A stretch of DNA of 64,000 nt from Runella defluvii (lineage in GTDB: Bacteria; Bacteroidota; Bacteroidia; Cytophagales; Spirosomataceae), in assembly GCF_014195535.1 (NCBI RefSeq), contig NZ_JACIBY010000005.1:121807-185806 (forward strand), in the 5' to 3' direction. Numbering within the stretch: position 1 is the first letter of the stretch; each line of letters opens with the position of its first letter. The notes below the pieces were generated by a model, which was given only the letters and a program-made list of their open reading frames with translations, made no database searches and had not been told where the DNA came from. This document shows positions 3,586 through 22,136 of this stretch, in pieces. The position numbers and the translations under genes are program-made.

Positions 3586-4362
3586 CTATTTAAGTGTAAG
3601 GTATAGCCCTAAAACAACCGCAACGGCGTTGAGTCCAATGACCACTGGCGACAATATACTGGAGAATCTTTGGTTTTTAACAATCCGAAGACTCCATTTG
3701 GAAGGCGGGACAAAGACGTAATCTCCGTCAAAAACGGGGATATTGGCCACGGCTGGATCGCCAAGGTTGCGGATGTCATAATTGACTTCCTGCTGCACGC
3801 CTGAGCGTTTCCGAATGAGCTTAATGGTTTTGTCGGCCGTCGCAAAATCAATCCCTCCCGACATGGCAATGACCTCTCCCAAGGTCAGTTTTTCATTTTC
3901 AAGAAAAATCATGCCTTGTCTCCCTACGGAGCCCAAGACCCTGATTTGTAGGTTAGAAATCTCAATGTCAAAAATAGGGTCATTGATGAGGTCTTTGTAA
4001 TACTGTTCTATGGCCTTGGTAGCGTCTGTTTTGGTCAGTCCCGCCACTTTGACGCGCCCCACTTGTGGTAAAACGATTTGGCCATGACGATCAACGGTAA
4101 TCAAATAAGCAGACGCCCCTGCCTGTCCCGACGACATGGGCGTGGAGGCTACGGCGATGTTGCCACCTTGCGGAAAAATAATCTCAAGCGCGTTGAGGCT
4201 TCGGATTCGCAAACGATCCCCAGGTTTAAGGCGGTACTCTGTCGTATCTGGCAGCAACTCAGGCTGACGGCCAATCATCTGAGTGGTTTTTGTGGTATCT
4301 GAGGTGCTTTTTTGGGCGTAAAGAGAGCCACAAAAAAGAAGAAGCAAAACGATAAAACGCAT
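3586..4362 (-). CDS. Wza-like polysaccharide export protein (Poly_export/SLBB)
   Basis: This is the periplasmic/outer-membrane export component of the exopolysaccharide unit, 258 residues from the chosen ATG. A signal peptide (MRFIVLLLLFCGSLYAQ) begins at the start; a Poly_export domain follows (YRLKPGDRLRIRSLN), then an SLBB segment (IRVLGSVGRQGMIFL onwards), and a single hydrophobic helix forms the C-terminus (about residues 236-256). There is no clear lipobox. An in-frame start further upstream at 4425 would put about 20 non-signal residues before the signal peptide and would lie upstream of the probable promoter at 4396-4403, so ATG 4362 is preferred. It is the first gene of the three-gene export unit and is divergent from rnhB. 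Confidence 0.88.
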   Translation of the reverse strand: MRFIVLLLLFCGSLYAQKSTSDTTKTTQMIGRQPELLPDTTEYRLKPGDRLRIRSLNALEIIFPQGGNIAVASTPMSSGQAGASAYLITVDRHGQIVLPQVGRVKVAGLTKTDATKAIEQYYKDLINDPIFDIEISNLQIRVLGSVGRQGMIFLENEKLTLGEVIAMSGGIDFATADKTIKLIRKRSGVQQEVNYDIRNLGDPAVANIPVFDGDYVFVPPSKWSLRIVKNQRFSSILSPVVIGLNAVAVVLGLYLTLK

Positions 4363-5142: not shown

Positions 5143-6429
5143 ATGGTTTCTACCACGATTGCCCGCGACACCCAAATTTTTGATTTAATCGCCAAAGAAC
5201 ACCACCGCCAAGAGTCTGGAATTGAGCTGATTGCTTCTGAAAACTTTACTTCTCCGCAAGTAATGGAAGCACAAGGAAGCGTATTGACCAACAAATACGC
5301 CGAGGGCCTTCCAGGCAAACGCTACTACGGTGGATGCGAAGTGGTGGATCAAATCGAACAAATTGCGATTGACCGCCTCAAGGAGCTGTTTGGTGCTACG
5401 TGGGCAAACGTGCAGCCGCACTCGGGAGCACAGGCAAACACGGCCGTTTTCTTGGCATGTTTGCAGCCTGGCGACAAAATTTTAGGTTTTAACTTAGCAC
5501 ACGGTGGCCACTTAACACACGGCTCGCCTGTGAATATTTCGGGTAAATACTTCCAGCCGTTTTTCTACGGTGTAGAACAAGAATCTGGTCTTATTGATTG
5601 GGACAAAGTAGAAGCTACGGCTTTGAAAGAGCGTCCAAAAATGATTATCTGCGGGGCGTCTGCTTATAGCCGTGACTGGGATTACATTCGCTTGCGCGCC
5701 ATCGCCGACCAAATCGGCGCGTTGTTGTTGGCCGACATTTCTCACCCAGCAGGTCTGATTGTCAAAGGTTTATTGAACGACCCATTGGAGCATTGCCACA
5801 TCGTCACCACCACTACCCACAAAACACTTCGTGGGCCTCGTGGTGGGGTAATTATGATGCGTAACGATTTTGAAAACCCATTTGGCTTGAAAACACCGAA
5901 AGGCGACATTCGCTCGATGTCTTCGTTGTTGGATTCTGGCGTTTTCCCTGGCACACAAGGCGGACCACTTGAGCACGTAATCGCAGCCAAGGCCGTCGCT
6001 TTCGGCGAAGCGCTTAGCGATGACTACACAGAATACGCCCACCAAGTTCGCAAAAACGCCCAAGCTATGGCAAAAGCGTTTGTCGATAAAGGGTATAAAA
6101 TCATTTCAAACGGTACCGACAACCACTTGATGCTCATCGACTTGAGCAGCAAAGGTTTGACAGGTAAGTTGGCCGAAAATACGCTTATCAAAGCCGACAT
6201 TACCGTAAACAAAAACATGGTTCCATTTGATACCAAGTCGCCGATGGTCACTTCGGGTATGCGTGTAGGTACGCCTGCCATGACAACCCGTGGTTTGAAA
6301 GAAGCAGATATGGAGCGTATCGTGGATTTGATGGATACGGTATTGATGAACGCTGAAAACGAAGCAAAAATCGACGCCGTAAAACAAGAAGTAAACAACT
6401 GGATGGCGGAAGTGCCTCTTTATAAGTAG
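5143..6429 (+). CDS. glyA: Serine hydroxymethyltransferase
   Basis: GlyA is the cytoplasmic PLP enzyme that interconverts serine plus tetrahydrofolate with glycine plus methylene-tetrahydrofolate, the main one-carbon source. The 428-residue product carries the N-terminal [10 protein letters not shown] motif, KRYYGGCE in the substrate region and the PLP lysine in [15 protein letters not shown] start it at the ATG at 5143 ([16 protein letters not shown]), which gives the normal family N-terminus; the 25 residues upstream in frame do not resemble the family and precede the probable promoter. The codon use is that of a highly expressed gene. The gene is followed by the unusual heptamer array at 6439-6527. 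Confidence 0.96.
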
Positions 6430-6438
6430 TTTTTCTCA

Positions 6439-6527
6439 GTTTCCTGTTTGGGGTTTACTGTTTCGGGTTGTAGAACAGGAAACTCAAAACCTCAAACAGG
6501 AAACTGAAAAAACCCAAACAGGAAACC
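6439..6527. repeat. Inverted array of degenerate heptamers (GTTT/AAAC phase), between convergent genes
   Basis: GTT recurs at 6439, 6446, 6453, 6460 and 6467, an exact 7-nt period. The complementary half follows at once, with the C of AAC at 6476, 6483, 6490, 6497 and 6504, also period 7, then 6519 and 6526 after a one-base slip. The other positions in each heptamer vary. The two halves can pair (for example AGTTTCCTGTTT at 6438 with AAACAGGAAACT at 6494) into a long hairpin flanked by T and A runs, so it can act as a bidirectional terminator between glyA and the convergent pseudouridine synthase gene. It has the same design as the array at 18493-18628. Confidence 0.75.
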
Positions 6528-6528
6528 A

Positions 6529-7251
6529 TTAACTATTCTTCTCCAACAGCTTCACCAACACCCCAAAATCCTTAGGATAAGGTGCTTCGATGACAACTGT
6601 TTCGTCGTTCATAAGCCTGAATGTGAGCGAGAACGCGTGTAACGCTACGCGCTGAATGATGGGCAACTCTTCTGAGTCTTTCTTCAAATTGTAATTTCGT
6701 TTCAATTCCGACAAATAAACCGTTGCTCCGCCGTAGGTAGGATCGCAAACGATTGGTGCCTTGAGGCACTGTAAATGCACCCGAATTTGGTGCATTCGGC
6801 CCGTAATGGGGATACATTCTACCAACGTGTGTTTCCGAAAAGCCTGTTTTGTAAAGAAAACCGTTTCGGCTGCTTTTCCATTTTGGCGATCTATTTTCAC
6901 GGCAGTGCCATCTTTGAGCGGCGCAATGGGTAAAAATACCGAGATACTGTCAAAATCGTGGACGCCGTTGGCAACCGCATGGTAACGTTTGGTCACTTCG
7001 CGGTACTCAAACTGCATGGCAATGTGTCGATATGCCGCAGGATTCTTGGCAATAGCCAACACGCCCGATGTTTCTTTGTCGAGGCGGTGGGCAACTTGGG
7101 CATCATGGCTGTATTCTTTGGCCATGCGCAAAATACTTATCGACTTATCAGCGGTACGTTCGTTGATGGTAGCGACGTGCGGAGGTTTATTGATAACGAT
7201 GTAGTCTTCGTTTTCAAACAATATGAGGTCTTTGAACTCGTAACGGAGCAT
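6529..7251 (-). CDS. RluA-family RNA pseudouridine synthase
   Basis: This 240-residue cytoplasmic enzyme converts uridine to pseudouridine in rRNA or tRNA. The core begins with DYIVINKPPHVATIN and the catalytic aspartate is in AHRLDKETSGV (D58), the RluA/RluC/RluD signature; GRMHQIRVHLQ further on is also typical. There is no S4 domain, so it is closer to the RluA/TruC subgroup, and the substrate site cannot be assigned. It lies 70 nt downstream of the LysR gene in the same direction and converges on glyA across the heptamer array. Confidence 0.9.
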   Translation of the reverse strand: MLRYEFKDLILFENEDYIVINKPPHVATINERTADKSISILRMAKEYSHDAQVAHRLDKETSGVLAIAKNPAAYRHIAMQFEYREVTKRYHAVANGVHDFDSISVFLPIAPLKDGTAVKIDRQNGKAAETVFFTKQAFRKHTLVECIPITGRMHQIRVHLQCLKAPIVCDPTYGGATVYLSELKRNYNLKKDSEELPIIQRVALHAFSLTFRLMNDETVVIEAPYPKDFGVLVKLLEKNS

Positions 7252-17013: not shown

Positions 17014-18498
17014 CTAATAACCAGCGCTTTGAACACAAAGCTTATTAGCATCAATTTCCGCTTGTGGAATCGGGAACAGCACGCGTTCGGGCTTGGCATT
17101 GGTGATGCCGCGCGCTTGAGCTAATGAAATAAACGTCCCTTGGCGAACGAGGTCTTCGCGGCGTTTGCCTTCTGAGACAAACTCCCAGCCTCTTTCTCTA
17201 AAAATGGCCGTACGGAAAGCATCTTTTGTAGGAGTGTCCGTTTGGGTCAAATTGGGAATCCCTGCCCGTGTACGAACGAGATTAATCAACGTAAATGCCT
17301 CCGCTGTGGGGCCATTGAGTTCGTTCAGTGCCTCTGCTCTGGTAAGTAGAATATCGGCATAACGCAGTATTGGAACGTCATTTCCACTGTTATTTCCAAC
17401 GGTATTGTTATCCCAATACTTAAAACTACGCGCATTATCTCCCGTTGACAAATCGACGGTTTGGTTGCTCGTATTGACATAACTCGTACAAATCAACTGT
17501 AAACGCTTGTCGTTGGCGGCAAACGAACTGGTAAATGCCGTCCGCAAGCGGTACTGCGTCGCAAAATTCGACATAGTGGTTTTGTAGGTAAAATTCGGAA
17601 ACTGAGGGCTGCTCTTGTAGCCTGGCGGCAGTGCTCCAGCTTGGTACCAATTGCCAAACGGGTCTTCGGGGCGGCATTGAAGTGCCAAAATCATTTCACG
17701 GTTGGCCGCACCTTCATTTTCGACTCTAAACATCCCCACAAAATCAGGATTGAGGGCGTAATAATTAAAATCCATCACGGCTTTGGCAGCATCGGCCGCT
17801 TTTTGCCATTGCTTGGTGTTGAGGTAAAACTTCGCCAAAATGCTGTAAGCAACGCCCTTACTAAACCGTCCATAGGTTTCTTCTTTGCCTGGGTCGGGCA
17901 AATCTGGAATCGACTCCGTGATTTCTTTTTCAACAAACGCCTTTAATTCTTCTTCCGTTGCCCGTGCCAATTCAGCAGGTTGTGTGGTGGAAGTCCGCAG
18001 CGGAACCGTTCCAAAAAAAGTCATCAAAAGCGCATAGGCTTGTGCCCGTAAGACCCGTGCTTCAGCTTTGTAAAGCTTTTTGGTGGCTTCGGTTGCTTTT
18101 ACATTCCCAATGTTTTCGATTACACCATTGGCATCACGTACCACGCGGTAGTTAGGATCCCACATATCGGCCGCCAAGGTTCCGAGCGTCGGGTCCCACG
18201 TAAAGTTGATTAGCTGAATAAGTTGTCCATTTTCAGCGCCACCCGTGTTAAAACCCATGTCGGTACAAACTTCCGAATCGTTGATCACGTAGCGCGAATT
18301 AGATTGGGTTTGCTGGTGTGCGTAGGCCGAAAAAAGCAACGCTTTGATACCGCTTTCCGACGTGAGTACGTTGTCGGGTGAAAACTCGGACCTCGGCGAT
18401 ACTTCCAGCGCTTTTTCGCACGACGTCAACATCAGAAACCCTCCGATGATTAAGCTATAGTTGAATGATTGTCTCATTTGATTTGTCATTTTGTTCAT
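17014..18498 (-). CDS. SusD/RagB-family outer-membrane glycan-binding lipoprotein
   Basis: The 494-residue protein is the lid and glycan-binding partner of the TonB-dependent transporter encoded just upstream. A lipobox LTSC puts the lipidated cysteine at C27. The N-terminal EKALEVSPRSEFSPDNV and the TPR-like helices (AEARVLRAQAYALLMTFFG; VAYSILAKFYLNTKQW) are typical SusD_RagB features, as is the C-terminal RAGIPNLTQTDT ... FRERGWEFVSEGKRREDLVR block. Length is normal for the family. Its start codon lies within the heptamer array at 18493-18628, which separates it from susC by 140 nt, an unusually long gap for a SusCD pair. Confidence 0.95.
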   Translation of the reverse strand: MNKMTNQMRQSFNYSLIIGGFLMLTSCEKALEVSPRSEFSPDNVLTSESGIKALLFSAYAHQQTQSNSRYVINDSEVCTDMGFNTGGAENGQLIQLINFTWDPTLGTLAADMWDPNYRVVRDANGVIENIGNVKATEATKKLYKAEARVLRAQAYALLMTFFGTVPLRTSTTQPAELARATEEELKAFVEKEITESIPDLPDPGKEETYGRFSKGVAYSILAKFYLNTKQWQKAADAAKAVMDFNYYALNPDFVGMFRVENEGAANREMILALQCRPEDPFGNWYQAGALPPGYKSSPQFPNFTYKTTMSNFATQYRLRTAFTSSFAANDKRLQLICTSYVNTSNQTVDLSTGDNARSFKYWDNNTVGNNSGNDVPILRYADILLTRAEALNELNGPTAEAFTLINLVRTRAGIPNLTQTDTPTKDAFRTAIFRERGWEFVSEGKRREDLVRQGTFISLAQARGITNAKPERVLFPIPQAEIDANKLCVQSAGY

Positions 18499-18628
18499 TG
18501 TTAACTGTTATTTGTTATCTGTTAACCGTTACTTGTTATCTGCGGCCTGTTTCTGCAAATGACCGCTCATAATCAACAAATTAGCCATTTTTCGATTAAC
18601 CGTTAACAAATAACCGTTAACCATTAAC
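18493..18628. repeat. Inverted array of degenerate heptamers (GTTA/TAAC phase) between susC and susD
   Basis: GTT recurs at 18493, 18500, 18507, 18514, 18521, 18528, 18535 and again at 18549, all on an exact 7-nt grid. After a spacer of about 45 nt the complementary TAAC follows with its C at 18600, 18607, 18614, 18621 and 18628, again period 7. The halves can pair into a long imperfect stem in the susC-susD intercistronic mRNA. The first heptamer overlaps the susD start codon (18496-18498), so folding would hide the susD initiation region. It shares its design but not its exact sequence with the array at 6439-6527. Confidence 0.75.
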
Positions 18629-18638
18629 ACCCCCTTAC

Positions 18639-21600
18639 CTAAAATTGCAAATTAACCCCTACGGTGTAAGTACGCGTTAGTGGATAGGTGTTGTAATCAA
18701 TCCGTAAAATATTATCTCCTAAAGCATTGGCTGCTGGGTCAGCACCTGAATACTTGGTAAAATTGTACAGGTTTTGACCATTCACAAACACCGAAGCGCT
18801 GCCTACATAGCGGTTTTTAGGTACTGGAATTTTGTACGACAACCGCACTGATTGAACACGTAAATACGAAGCATCTTCGACGGTTTTGTTGGTTACTTGG
18901 CGTTGGCCTTGCACGTCGTTGGGCAAAAACGATGGGTAGTCGTTGGTAGGATTGGTCGGTGTCCAACGGTTTAGGTACGGAACAGCCAATTTATTTCGAC
19001 GATAATCCACTGGGTAATACGCGTCCACCAAGCTACTGTTCAGCATTTTAGCTCCTTGTGAGCCTTCCAAGAAAATATCCAATGCCAAGGTTTTGTAGGA
19101 AGCACTGGTGTTGAAACCATAGAAAAAGTCAGGCAGCGATTTACCAAGCACCACGCGGTCGTTGGCATTGATGACTTTGTTTCCGTCAAGGTCGCGGTAT
19201 TTCAAATCGCCTGGGCGTACGCCTGACTGCGCTTGGGTAAAGTCTTCGCCCGTTTGCCAAACGCCATCCACCAAATACCCATAGAACGACCCAATCGACT
19301 CACCTGGCTTGAGAATACTCACTTGGCCAATGCTACCTGGGCCTGACCCGATGAACTGAGGCACTTTTCCAAGACTCAGCACGCGGTTTTTGAGGGTTGT
19401 AATATTAAAACCAGCATCGACACGGAAGCCATTTTTATCGGTCAAAATACCCTTCAAAGCAAGCTCAACTCCCGTATTACGCATACTTCCCACGTTTTCG
19501 ATGCGGCTTCCAAAACCCGTACTCGCTGGTTGTGGAATGTCGTAAAGCAGGTTAGACGTTTTGCGGTTATAATAGTCGATGCTACCCGTAAGACGACCGT
19601 TGAAAAAGCCAAAATCAATCCCTAAGTCAGCTTGCACGGCGGCTTCCCACTGCAAGTCAGGATTGGCGCTGCGCGATGGCTGCAACGAACTGTAGCGGTT
19701 GCCATTGAAAACGGCATTGCGTCCCGCCGAAAAAGTAGAGAAATACAAGTAATTGATGGTCGGCTGGTTACCCGTTGCACCGTAGCTGGCACGTAGTTTA
19801 AGTTCGCTCAAGAAATTTACATTTTTCAAGAAAGCCTCGTCCTGAATCCGCCACGCCAAGGCCGCCGACGGGAAATAGCCAAAACGCTTGTTGGGGCCAA
19901 ACCGCGCCGAACCATCAGCCCGCATCGACAGCGTTAGTAAATACTTACTGTTAAACGAGTAGTTCACCCGCCCCAAAAACGACACCAATTTGTTTTCTTG
20001 ACGGCCACTTCCTACGCCATTCAGGGTATTATCGCCCGTACCGAGCGCGTTGAAGGTAAGGTCGGGCAAGGCAAAAGAACGCGAATTGGCAATGATAGAA
20101 CTTGAAGTATAGCGTTCGTAGGTAGCTCCTGCCACGGCGCTAATGCGGTGATTTTTAACCTCTTTATTGAAATTCAACGTTCCTTCGGTCAGGTAGTAGC
20201 CTCGTTTTCCATCGCGAACATCGGCATAACCGTTGTACGAAAGCCCCGTCAAGGTACTGGGGTCAATCCAGAAATACCGTTGGTTATCATTAAAATCCGC
20301 TCCTACGCGGACTTTGGCCGACAGCGAAGGAACGAAGTAATATTCGGCATAAATATTTCCAAACGTACGGTACGTATCGCCCATCCCATACTGTCCATTA
20401 ATCACCGCCAATGGGCTATCCATGGGCGCCATCAACGACGAGCGATAGTACGTTCCGTCGGGGTTATAAGCAGGCACCGTGGGGTCGTAGTTTTGGGCCA
20501 TGTACAGCGCGCTGGCGTTGTCGTTTAGCCCTACCCCCGTTGCATTGTAGTAATCTCTGGTGTAAGAGGTGTTTAGGCTTACTCCTACGTTGTATTTGTT
20601 GGCCACGCCATTTTCAAGGTTCATTCGAGCGCTGTAGCGGCTTGTCCCTGATTTGAGCATAATCCCATCTTGGTTGAAATAACCCGCCGAAATGTAGTAA
20701 CGGGTATTTCCTCCCGCCCCGCTAAACGAGAGGTCGTGCGACTGAATGGGGGCATCGCGAAGCAATAGACTTTGCCAATCGGTATTGGCGTTGGTTCCCG
20801 TCACTTTTGGGGTCGAAAGTTTTCCCAAATCAATGATGGAGTTGATGACATCCGTGTATTCCGTTCCTGTCAAAAAACGCTGCGTATTCGCCACTTTCTG
20901 TACGCCGTGTGTTCCGTTGTATTCTACTTTGAGCTTCCCATCTTTTCCACGGCGGGTAGTAATGAGTACCACCCCGTTTGCTCCGCGCGAACCGTAAATG
21001 GCTGTAGCAGAGGCATCTTTTAGAATTTCTATTGACTCAATATCGGCAGGGTTTAAGCTGTTAAGCGGCGTACGGTTGTTGGGATTGCTGGTCGTTCCCC
21101 CAGCACTTGCCGAGCCAATCGCCGTTCCATCGTTTACGGGCAAGCCATCTACTACATACAGCGGGTCGTTGTTTCCCGTAATGGAAGTTATTCCCCTGAT
21201 TTGCACGCTCATGGCCGAACCTGGCTCACCACTTTTTTGGTAAACCTGCACCCCAGGCGCGCGCCCTGCCAAGGTTTGTTGAAGGTTGATATTGGAGCCA
21301 CGGGTCAAATCTTGCGCTTTCAACGACATCACCGAGCCCGTCAAATCGCTTTTGCGTACGGTGCCGTATCCTACCACCACCACTTCATTGAGCGATTGGT
21401 CACTTTCTTTCAATTGCACGTTGATTTCCGTTCGGTTACCCACCGTCACTTCTTGTGCCTCGTACCCGACGTACGAAAACACCAACACCAATCCACTCGC
21501 TTTTCCTAACGATTCGGGAATACGTAATTGATAACGCCCGTTGGCATCCGTGGTTGTCCCACGGACAGTTCCTTTTACAACCACGTTTGCCCCTGGAATG

Positions 21601-22136
21601 ACCCCGTTATTATCTGCGGTGGTTACAGTTCCACTAATGGTCACTTCTTCGGCACGGGTTTCGAGCGGGCCTGATGCCACAACCGTGGTCAATGAGCCGT
21701 TGGAGGCGGGGTCGGTTTGGGGTTGGTTTTCTTCGTTGGTGGGCGTAACGGGAAATCGGGCCTCTCCGACCGAAGCCGACGATTTTTTGGCCAATACCAC
21801 CCATGTACCTGCTTTTACTTGTTTATAACGCAAATTAAAGGGCTTTAACAAACGAGAAAGGGCATTTTCGAGGGAGGTGGTTCCCGCCAACACATCGGTC
21901 GGAACCGTCAGATTAGCTACTGTTCGGTCTTCAAACAAAATATCAGCTTTGTACTTGGCTTTCAGCCCATTTAAGGCATCCGAAAGGCGAGTGGTCGTTG
22001 CCGAGGCAGCAGAGTAGGTGGGGCGTTGTTGCGAGCTAACCATCGCCATTGCCTGACTATTGGCAAGTTGAGGCTCGACCAACAACGCGCCAGTAAGCAA
22101 CCCTACCAGCGTAGTTGGGATAAAAATAGAGCGCAT
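18639..22136 (-). CDS. SusC/RagA-family TonB-dependent glycan transporter with N-terminal signalling domain
   Basis: The 1165-residue outer-membrane transporter imports oligosaccharides using TonB energy. After a signal sequence (about 1-30) comes a secretin/TonB N-terminal (STN) domain (about 50-112, LSDALNGLKAKYKADILFED), a carboxypeptidase-regulatory-like domain (VTISGTVTTADNNGVIPGAN onwards), then the plug with VVVVGYGTVRKSDLTGSV, and a large beta-barrel ending in a phenylalanine (VGVNLQF). An STN domain marks transducer-type SusC proteins that signal to a FecR-type anti-sigma factor, and exactly such a pair is encoded just upstream. The substrate is unknown; the neighbours suggest a sulfated or beta-linked glycan. 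Confidence 0.95.
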   Translation of the reverse strand: MRSIFIPTTLVGLLTGALLVEPQLANSQAMAMVSSQQRPTYSAASATTTRLSDALNGLKAKYKADILFEDRTVANLTVPTDVLAGTTSLENALSRLLKPFNLRYKQVKAGTWVVLAKKSSASVGEARFPVTPTNEENQPQTDPASNGSLTTVVASGPLETRAEEVTISGTVTTADNNGVIPGANVVVKGTVRGTTTDANGRYQLRIPESLGKASGLVLVFSYVGYEAQEVTVGNRTEINVQLKESDQSLNEVVVVGYGTVRKSDLTGSVMSLKAQDLTRGSNINLQQTLAGRAPGVQVYQKSGEPGSAMSVQIRGITSITGNNDPLYVVDGLPVNDGTAIGSASAGGTTSNPNNRTPLNSLNPADIESIEILKDASATAIYGSRGANGVVLITTRRGKDGKLKVEYNGTHGVQKVANTQRFLTGTEYTDVINSIIDLGKLSTPKVTGTNANTDWQSLLLRDAPIQSHDLSFSGAGGNTRYYISAGYFNQDGIMLKSGTSRYSARMNLENGVANKYNVGVSLNTSYTRDYYNATGVGLNDNASALYMAQNYDPTVPAYNPDGTYYRSSLMAPMDSPLAVINGQYGMGDTYRTFGNIYAEYYFVPSLSAKVRVGADFNDNQRYFWIDPSTLTGLSYNGYADVRDGKRGYYLTEGTLNFNKEVKNHRISAVAGATYERYTSSSIIANSRSFALPDLTFNALGTGDNTLNGVGSGRQENKLVSFLGRVNYSFNSKYLLTLSMRADGSARFGPNKRFGYFPSAALAWRIQDEAFLKNVNFLSELKLRASYGATGNQPTINYLYFSTFSAGRNAVFNGNRYSSLQPSRSANPDLQWEAAVQADLGIDFGFFNGRLTGSIDYYNRKTSNLLYDIPQPASTGFGSRIENVGSMRNTGVELALKGILTDKNGFRVDAGFNITTLKNRVLSLGKVPQFIGSGPGSIGQVSILKPGESIGSFYGYLVDGVWQTGEDFTQAQSGVRPGDLKYRDLDGNKVINANDRVVLGKSLPDFFYGFNTSASYKTLALDIFLEGSQGAKMLNSSLVDAYYPVDYRRNKLAVPYLNRWTPTNPTNDYPSFLPNDVQGQRQVTNKTVEDASYLRVQSVRLSYKIPVPKNRYVGSASVFVNGQNLYNFTKYSGADPAANALGDNILRIDYNTYPLTRTYTVGVNLQF

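Follow-up and report, generated by a model that had tools for sequence, protein, structure and literature searches.

Degenerate heptad arrays in small intergenic elements of Runella, including one inserted between susC and susD

The junction between susC and susD in Runella defluvii carries a series of seven-nucleotide units that keep their spacing more faithfully than their letters and that run in opposite directions on either side of a central gap. The locus raises the question of what such an array is, how it came to lie within the operon and what might read it. The window considered here is the whole 64,000-nt stretch of contig NZ_JACIBY010000005.1 that was analysed (positions 121,807 to 185,806), and coordinates refer to it unless another genome is named.

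The array at the susC-susD junction

Both genes lie on the minus strand. susC, encoding a TonB-dependent receptor, occupies 18639..22136 and ends with a TAG stop codon at 18639-18641; susD (PF07980, PF14322) occupies 17014..18498. GTT recurs on a 7-nt grid at 18493, 18500, 18507, 18514, 18521, 18528 and 18535, skips 18542 and returns at 18549. TAAC follows at 18597, 18604, 18611, 18618 and 18625, its closing C's falling at 18600 to 18628. The initial annotation had placed both grids correctly to the base, and they exceed chance: at period 7 the window holds chains of six GTTA units and five TAAC units, whereas the longest chain at any different period between 4 and 15 has four units (at period 14). 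The first arm (18493..18541, plus strand) comprises seven units, GTTCATT, GTTAACT, GTTATTT, GTTATCT, GTTAACC, GTTACTT and GTTATCT, which on the coding strand are TAAC units running into susD. A 52-nt loop (18542..18593) separates it from the second arm (18594..18628, minus strand), whose five units on the coding strand are GTTAATG, GTTAACG, GTTATTT, GTTAACG and GTTAATC, beginning 10 nt past the susC stop codon. The array is inverted, as the annotation described it, the arms forming a 37-nt inverted repeat that is 84% complementary with its halves 64 nt apart.

In Runella limosa DSM 17973 (G003), the end of susC (TTTTAA) is followed directly by ATGACAAATC of susD, the stop codon abutting the start. 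R. defluvii has approximately 148 bp (18493..18640) where R. limosa has none, and the junctions of this segment are ambiguous by 1-2 nt because T's are shared at both ends. The orthologous element of another Runella genome, G010, is 14 bp longer; its arms are conserved, but its loop is much altered. For the 58 susC-susD spacers measured from 60 loci, R. limosa included, the median length is 15.5 nt, and three lengths of more than 1 kb probably reflect misplaced anchors; no spacer contains three or more units and one (L207) contains two. The empty R. limosa junction and the short spacers elsewhere indicate that a short spacer is ancestral. By this comparison the array is a recent, lineage-specific insertion of ~148 bp, a point absent from the initial annotation, and its units were already diverse on arrival. 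Empty sites of this kind provide relative dates, and R. limosa serves as a natural control for the junction.

The inserted DNA reaches into the start of susD. The ATG at 18496-18498 lies in the insertion, and the in-frame ATG at 18487-18489 is the start common with R. limosa. An overlap of the first unit with the susD start codon, as annotated, is thus correct for the upstream ATG and incorrect for the common start, which lies just outside. The insertion gives susD this extra in-frame ATG and three additional codons (MNK; 18487-18498).

Heptad families, their placement and their turnover

The R. defluvii genome (7.99 Mb, 50 contigs) contains 77 matches to four consecutive GTTANNN units at 46 separate places, against none for the reversed control, and at least 155 matches to three consecutive units against two. 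A sister set, GTTTNNN, gives 88 four-unit matches at 32 places (control 4). The excess of period-7 arrays over control that the initial annotation had proposed to look for is therefore present. An inverted sister array of the GTTTNNN type lies within the window itself (6439..6528), where it separates two convergent genes that encode SHMT (ending at 6429) and a pseudouridine synthase (ending at 6529). GTTANNN matches are found in all 12 other Runella genomes searched, with 3 to 67 matches each (control 0 to 9).

From 48 stretches of the R. defluvii genome, 61 arrays scoring at least three units were obtained at 53 loci, a set that takes three-unit loci from the matches listed, up to contig 6, with later ones left out. 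The units mostly share their first four bases and vary at the other three, giving the form GTTA-N-Y-N with a pyrimidine at position 6 in 225/227 units. Neighbouring units are identical in 8/200 cases, against 14.8 expected.

Twenty arbitrary 20-kb stretches and the window were also scanned for repeated 4-mers in noncoding DNA with no motif specified. Three-copy 4-mers number 14 at period 7 (four of them in the window arrays), followed by period 21 with 10 and period 15 with 8. Four-copy cases without an N gap number six at period 7, four of which are the window arrays, and zero or one at other periods, so that motif-free support is thin beyond the window. Identity at lag 7 is not raised in noncoding DNA taken in bulk, the arrays being few, a result that speaks against the reader proposed below. 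In a wider search, 51/247 genomes contain matches to the heptad pattern, R. defluvii and one other Runella being among the 51; the matches listed are mostly perfect repeats, with few degenerate ones (e.g. in G148). The reversed control is as frequent or more so in several of the 247 genomes, and likewise in G018 and G026.

The arrays are placed according to one rule for stops and starts: the core points away from the gene beside it. Of the arrays no more than 20 nt from a stop codon, 29 have GTTA directed away from the stop and one towards it; of those within 25 nt of a start codon, six have TAAC running into the start and one the opposite way. Related elements were counted singly in these figures, and gene ends, which come from a home-made gene caller, may be off. 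Unrelated repeats in Xanthomonas, GGGAATC, are described as following this rule too (PMC4692102). The proteins encoded next to ten arrays have no common function, although one is another SusD. A device specific to polysaccharide utilisation loci (PULs) is set aside as the principal explanation, as genes for transketolase, desaturase, phosphorylase and efflux are among the array neighbours.

The elements also appear to come and go between species whose flanking sites differ by 6.4% (R. defluvii and G010), 7.8% (R. defluvii and R. limosa) and 9.1% (G010 and R. limosa). Among those of the 53 R. defluvii loci that could be anchored, units are missing at 31/40 in R. limosa and at 14/40 in G010, one of the latter (L084) being an incomplete alignment; some loci scored as lacking an orthologue in G010 had one located later. 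Conversely, 13 of the 16 G010 array loci with a counterpart in R. defluvii have no three-unit array there. As several of these can be aligned over their full length, the R. defluvii sites may be degraded rather than empty. On these alignments, heptad elements turn over between close Runella species.

The GTTA core and its possible readers

Where an array is kept in both species, the core changes far more slowly than the remainder of the unit. Pooled over the retained loci, to which the test is confined, and over two comparisons that share the R. defluvii lineage, GTTA has changed at 9/560 sites and NYN at 48/420. Between R. defluvii and G010 (17 loci) the counts are 5/376 and 20/282; between R. 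defluvii and R. limosa (8 loci) they are 4/184 and 28/138 (p 6e-8). One locus, L087, supplies 13 of the 28 NYN changes in R. limosa, and its removal leaves 3/156 against 15/117 (p 4e-4). Third codon positions have changed at 283/1868 sites in G010 and 75/580 in R. limosa, and other noncoding sites at 155/2090 and 74/1921, respectively; the R. limosa core is not significantly slower than the latter (p 0.31). Isolated noncoding GTTA has changed at 32/492 sites (15/276 in G010, 17/216 in R. limosa), which differs from the pooled arrays at p 4e-5. A neutral simulation of the retention filter predicts GTTA change of 5.8% for G010 and 14.6% for R. limosa. An unfiltered count (58/564 core changes in G010, 28/240 in R. 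limosa) was set aside because it included alignments of arrays with array-free loci. The heptad rhythm itself thus looks constrained, and the description of the window array as conserved in rhythm and not in sequence extends to the orthologues. The constraint is the same in arrays of a single direction only (core 2/188, NYN 10/141), indicating that pairing between arms is not the whole reason for the slow core.

We tentatively propose, at a little below even confidence, that the heptads are recognition arrays for a putative heptad-reading protein, carried by small intergenic inserts and, at the window locus, modulating susD. Small, fast-turning-over intergenic elements of Runella carry degenerate heptads of the GTTA-N-Y-N type or its GTTT-NNN sister, which are inverted at about one third of loci and point away from the genes beside them. 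Once inserted, they keep the four-base core on its seven-base grid with little change as the other three bases drift. The array would then most likely act as a multi-site landing array in which a nucleic-acid-binding protein reads one core per seven bases. The combination of a slow core, fixed pitch, free spacers and both directions, with or without a partner arm, fits such a protein. From this combination we infer the existence of the reader, its type and its effect on susD. The favoured candidate would be a DNA-binding protein of the ribbon-helix-helix kind, similar to omega/ParB of pSM19035; alternatively, an RNA-binding protein might count the cores, and a hairpin may contribute as well. 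At susD, the array could influence transcription, the fate of the mRNA or initiation, at a junction now parted from susC. The TRAP-binding NAG repeats of Bacillus likewise present a short, regularly spaced core, separated by free spacers, to a multimeric reader protein. Unlike the Runella arrays, these have a shorter pitch, act as RNA and occur in one orientation.

A serious rival is the mechanism suggested in the initial annotation, in which pairing between the two halves of the array within the polycistronic mRNA masks the initiation region of susD and decouples susD from susC. We regard it as possible, if on the unlikely side. The halves are predicted to be able to pair, the window element folding as RNA at -40.6 kcal/mol (z -5.0), and stable folds are predicted for nine elements (z -4.0 to -10.5). 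At L066, L067, one of L069 and L073, the own partner arm pairs much better than other arms do. Pairing survives in 30 of 53 changed pairs on the transcript strand, against 22.8 expected (p 0.03), with one-sided changes keeping the pair in 22/43 cases (18.0 expected) and two-sided changes in 8/10 (4.8 expected). These counts come from 13 comparisons at loci between co-directional genes. The excess raises the standing of the hairpin and lowers those of the heptad reader and of a transposon origin, but it is small and is based on folds predicted from the R. defluvii sequence. The heptad arms alone keep 12/25 changed pairs against 9.4 expected. Base-pair-preserving variation, which the annotation had named as a check, thus has weak support on the transcript strand. 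On the plus strand, the wrong one for the susC/susD operon, one-sided changes keep the pair at the chance level (17/48) and two-sided changes in 5/8 cases. In an arm swap across 16 loci, own arms are no better partners than swapped ones (p 0.39). A looser test of 23 R. defluvii arm pairs gives p 0.0135, with p 0.055 for G010 and p 0.12 for R. limosa.

At the window locus, G010 preserves nine of the 13 changed pairs, and in four of the nine it does so through two-sided changes. All four lie in the loop and none between the heptad arms, in which two pairs have changed and one is kept. The G010 orthologue retains the predicted fold energy (-40.9 kcal/mol) but folds with its arms in a shifted register. 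The indications that the stem is kept in energy, and perhaps in structure, are suggestive but not strong. In the predicted fold, the upstream AUG stays open, lying at the base of the stem. An inverted partner is present at 16/53 loci by the criterion used, and the core is just as constrained in single-direction arrays, which have no partner arm. No intrinsic terminator (G-C hairpin with a T run) is found at 18300-18800; over the same interval, Rfam 15 gives nothing above the gathering score, the only hits being two sub-threshold miRNA matches.

Rather unlikely, in our estimation, is that the arrays belong to miniature transposable elements, with the heptads as subterminal transposase-binding sites and their adjacency to stop codons resulting from a TTAA-like target and purging from genes. 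Heptad elements resemble bacterial MITEs in being small, non-coding, intergenic and absent from empty sites in relatives, which are clean. Those at L061, L066b and L081 measure 90-99 bp and have 4-bp overlaps at their empty sites (TTAA in L061), several heptad elements start with a small TTAAGTG hairpin, and a 107-bp element of the L089 type has several copies in G005 and G008, one in G007, and one in G010 at a place other than that in R. defluvii. As some elements are MITE-like, their cores could be transposase sites, which counts against the reader. The window element differs from MITEs in having no target duplication and no close copies: the overlap at its empty site is 1 nt rather than 4 bp, and, at E 1e-6, no other R. 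defluvii array of the set has a stretch of 60 bp or more in common with it. Its best matches among those listed from 13 Runella genomes, the G010 orthologue excepted, span about 28-49 nt at 82-96% identity. Two longer ones among the matches listed reach 68-70%, and no donor copy appears among the matches listed for the 13 genomes, in a search that scored 40 of 64 R. defluvii candidates and 40 of 54 from G010. No autonomous element was found in a search confined to Y1-transposase loci, and the seven such loci have no heptad array, giving no link to REP/RAYT systems. The cores of settled copies change slowly, a pattern not expected from transposition by itself.

A bolder form of the reader proposal is speculative, and we consider it unlikely. 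Here a genome-wide code of seven-base pitch would have arrays placed, already diversified and with no matching donor copy, at gene junctions, where a dedicated protein would read the core rhythm whatever the other three bases are. GTTA and GTTT might be its two channels, the boundary rule shared with Xanthomonas would apply, and slippable hairpin registers could belong to it. Least of all do we favour neutral tandem repeats arising by polymerase slippage and then mutated, a very improbable origin to which perfect heptamer runs, common among the matches listed from other Bacteroidota genomes, a perfect (GTTAATC)n run in G010 and length changes of 7 and 21 nt lend some colour, but which the slow core and the diversity of the recent susC/susD insertion oppose and which is set aside as the principal explanation because identical neighbours are scarce (8/200 against 14.8).

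Known heptameric repeats and neighbouring rhythms

Intergenic heptamer repeats are already known from cyanobacteria, Beggiatoaceae, Xanthomonas and some Bacteroidetes. The initial annotation knew of no description of an inverted, degenerate form in Bacteroidetes, which overlooks the TAACTGA direct repeats printed by MacGregor (2015) for marine Beggiatoaceae, cyanobacteria and five Bacteroidetes (PMC4679880). These heptamers are intergenic too, their sequence conforms to TAAC-N-R-N, which complements the Runella unit, and TAAC is oriented into the start codon (PMC4679880); the window array is also intergenic, with TAAC oriented into the upstream susD ATG. Related heptamers split 36/169 of the TAACTGA sets, Elizabethkingia has larger heptamer assemblages and Gramella other heptamers (PMC4679880). 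As printed there, however, one fixed heptamer dominates, single-base variants are rarely repeated and one inverted case is given for the main genome (PMC4679880), whereas the Runella units vary at three of seven positions. A position-wise rate test, made here for the Runella arrays, does not figure in the excerpted text of that study, in which S1, Csp or Csr proteins are proposed as RNA readers (PMC4679880).

The repeats GGGAATC of Xanthomonas and GGGGA(C/T)T of Nostoc differ from those of Runella in being G-rich and quadruplex-forming, with one consensus per genus (PMC4692102). Closer in layout is parS, the site of omega/ParB of pSM19035, which consists of contiguous 7-bp units in direct and inverted orientation (PMC9499535). 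One omega/ParB dimer binds each 7-bp unit, and full activity needs four contiguous units (PMC9499535). The window arms, of seven and five units, comprise at least four contiguous 7-bp units in direct and inverted orientation. Their unit, GTTANYN, does not match the WATCACW consensus of parS, which is moreover a plasmid centromere with a known reader protein (PMC9499535).

A search of open-licence papers for degenerate or inverted heptamers, Runella and susC-susD hairpins returned no description of this form among the matches listed. The new features are degenerate units with a slow core, arms inverted at part of the loci, insertions set against empty sites, two sister families (GTTA and GTTT) and a boundary rule common to unrelated heptamers. 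Heptameric intergenic repeats recur across unrelated phyla with unrelated sequences, and the reason for seven is an open question, for which polymerase slippage is cited as one idea (PMC4692102). With three free positions in the unit, rhythm is separable from sequence, so the question of seven can be tested in Runella.

Further rhythms and repeats were seen alongside the arrays. At L098, a heptad array of the AAAC type comes after the GTTA one (past the array at 3962-4010), and at L106, near 4040-4090, TCGTAAT-like units extend up to the next start codon. The intergenic regions of L060, L077 and L097 contain a dispersed REP-like palindrome resembling GTAGCCTCGGTAGAGGCGCAACATTTGTAG, the core pattern of which has four matches in 409 kb. 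A small inverted element, GACTTTCCAAGTTT...AAACTTGGAAAGTC, is found at the same kind of junction at L100 in R. defluvii and in the R. limosa orthologues of L096 and L106. L085 and its R. limosa orthologue show a possible third intergenic rhythm of the GGGCAAG/GGGGCAA type. Finally, at L286 (G010:C1:5106777-5106829), the perfect (GTTAATC)n run faces a compound repeat with TAAC units, and the corresponding R. defluvii sequence is shorter and different.
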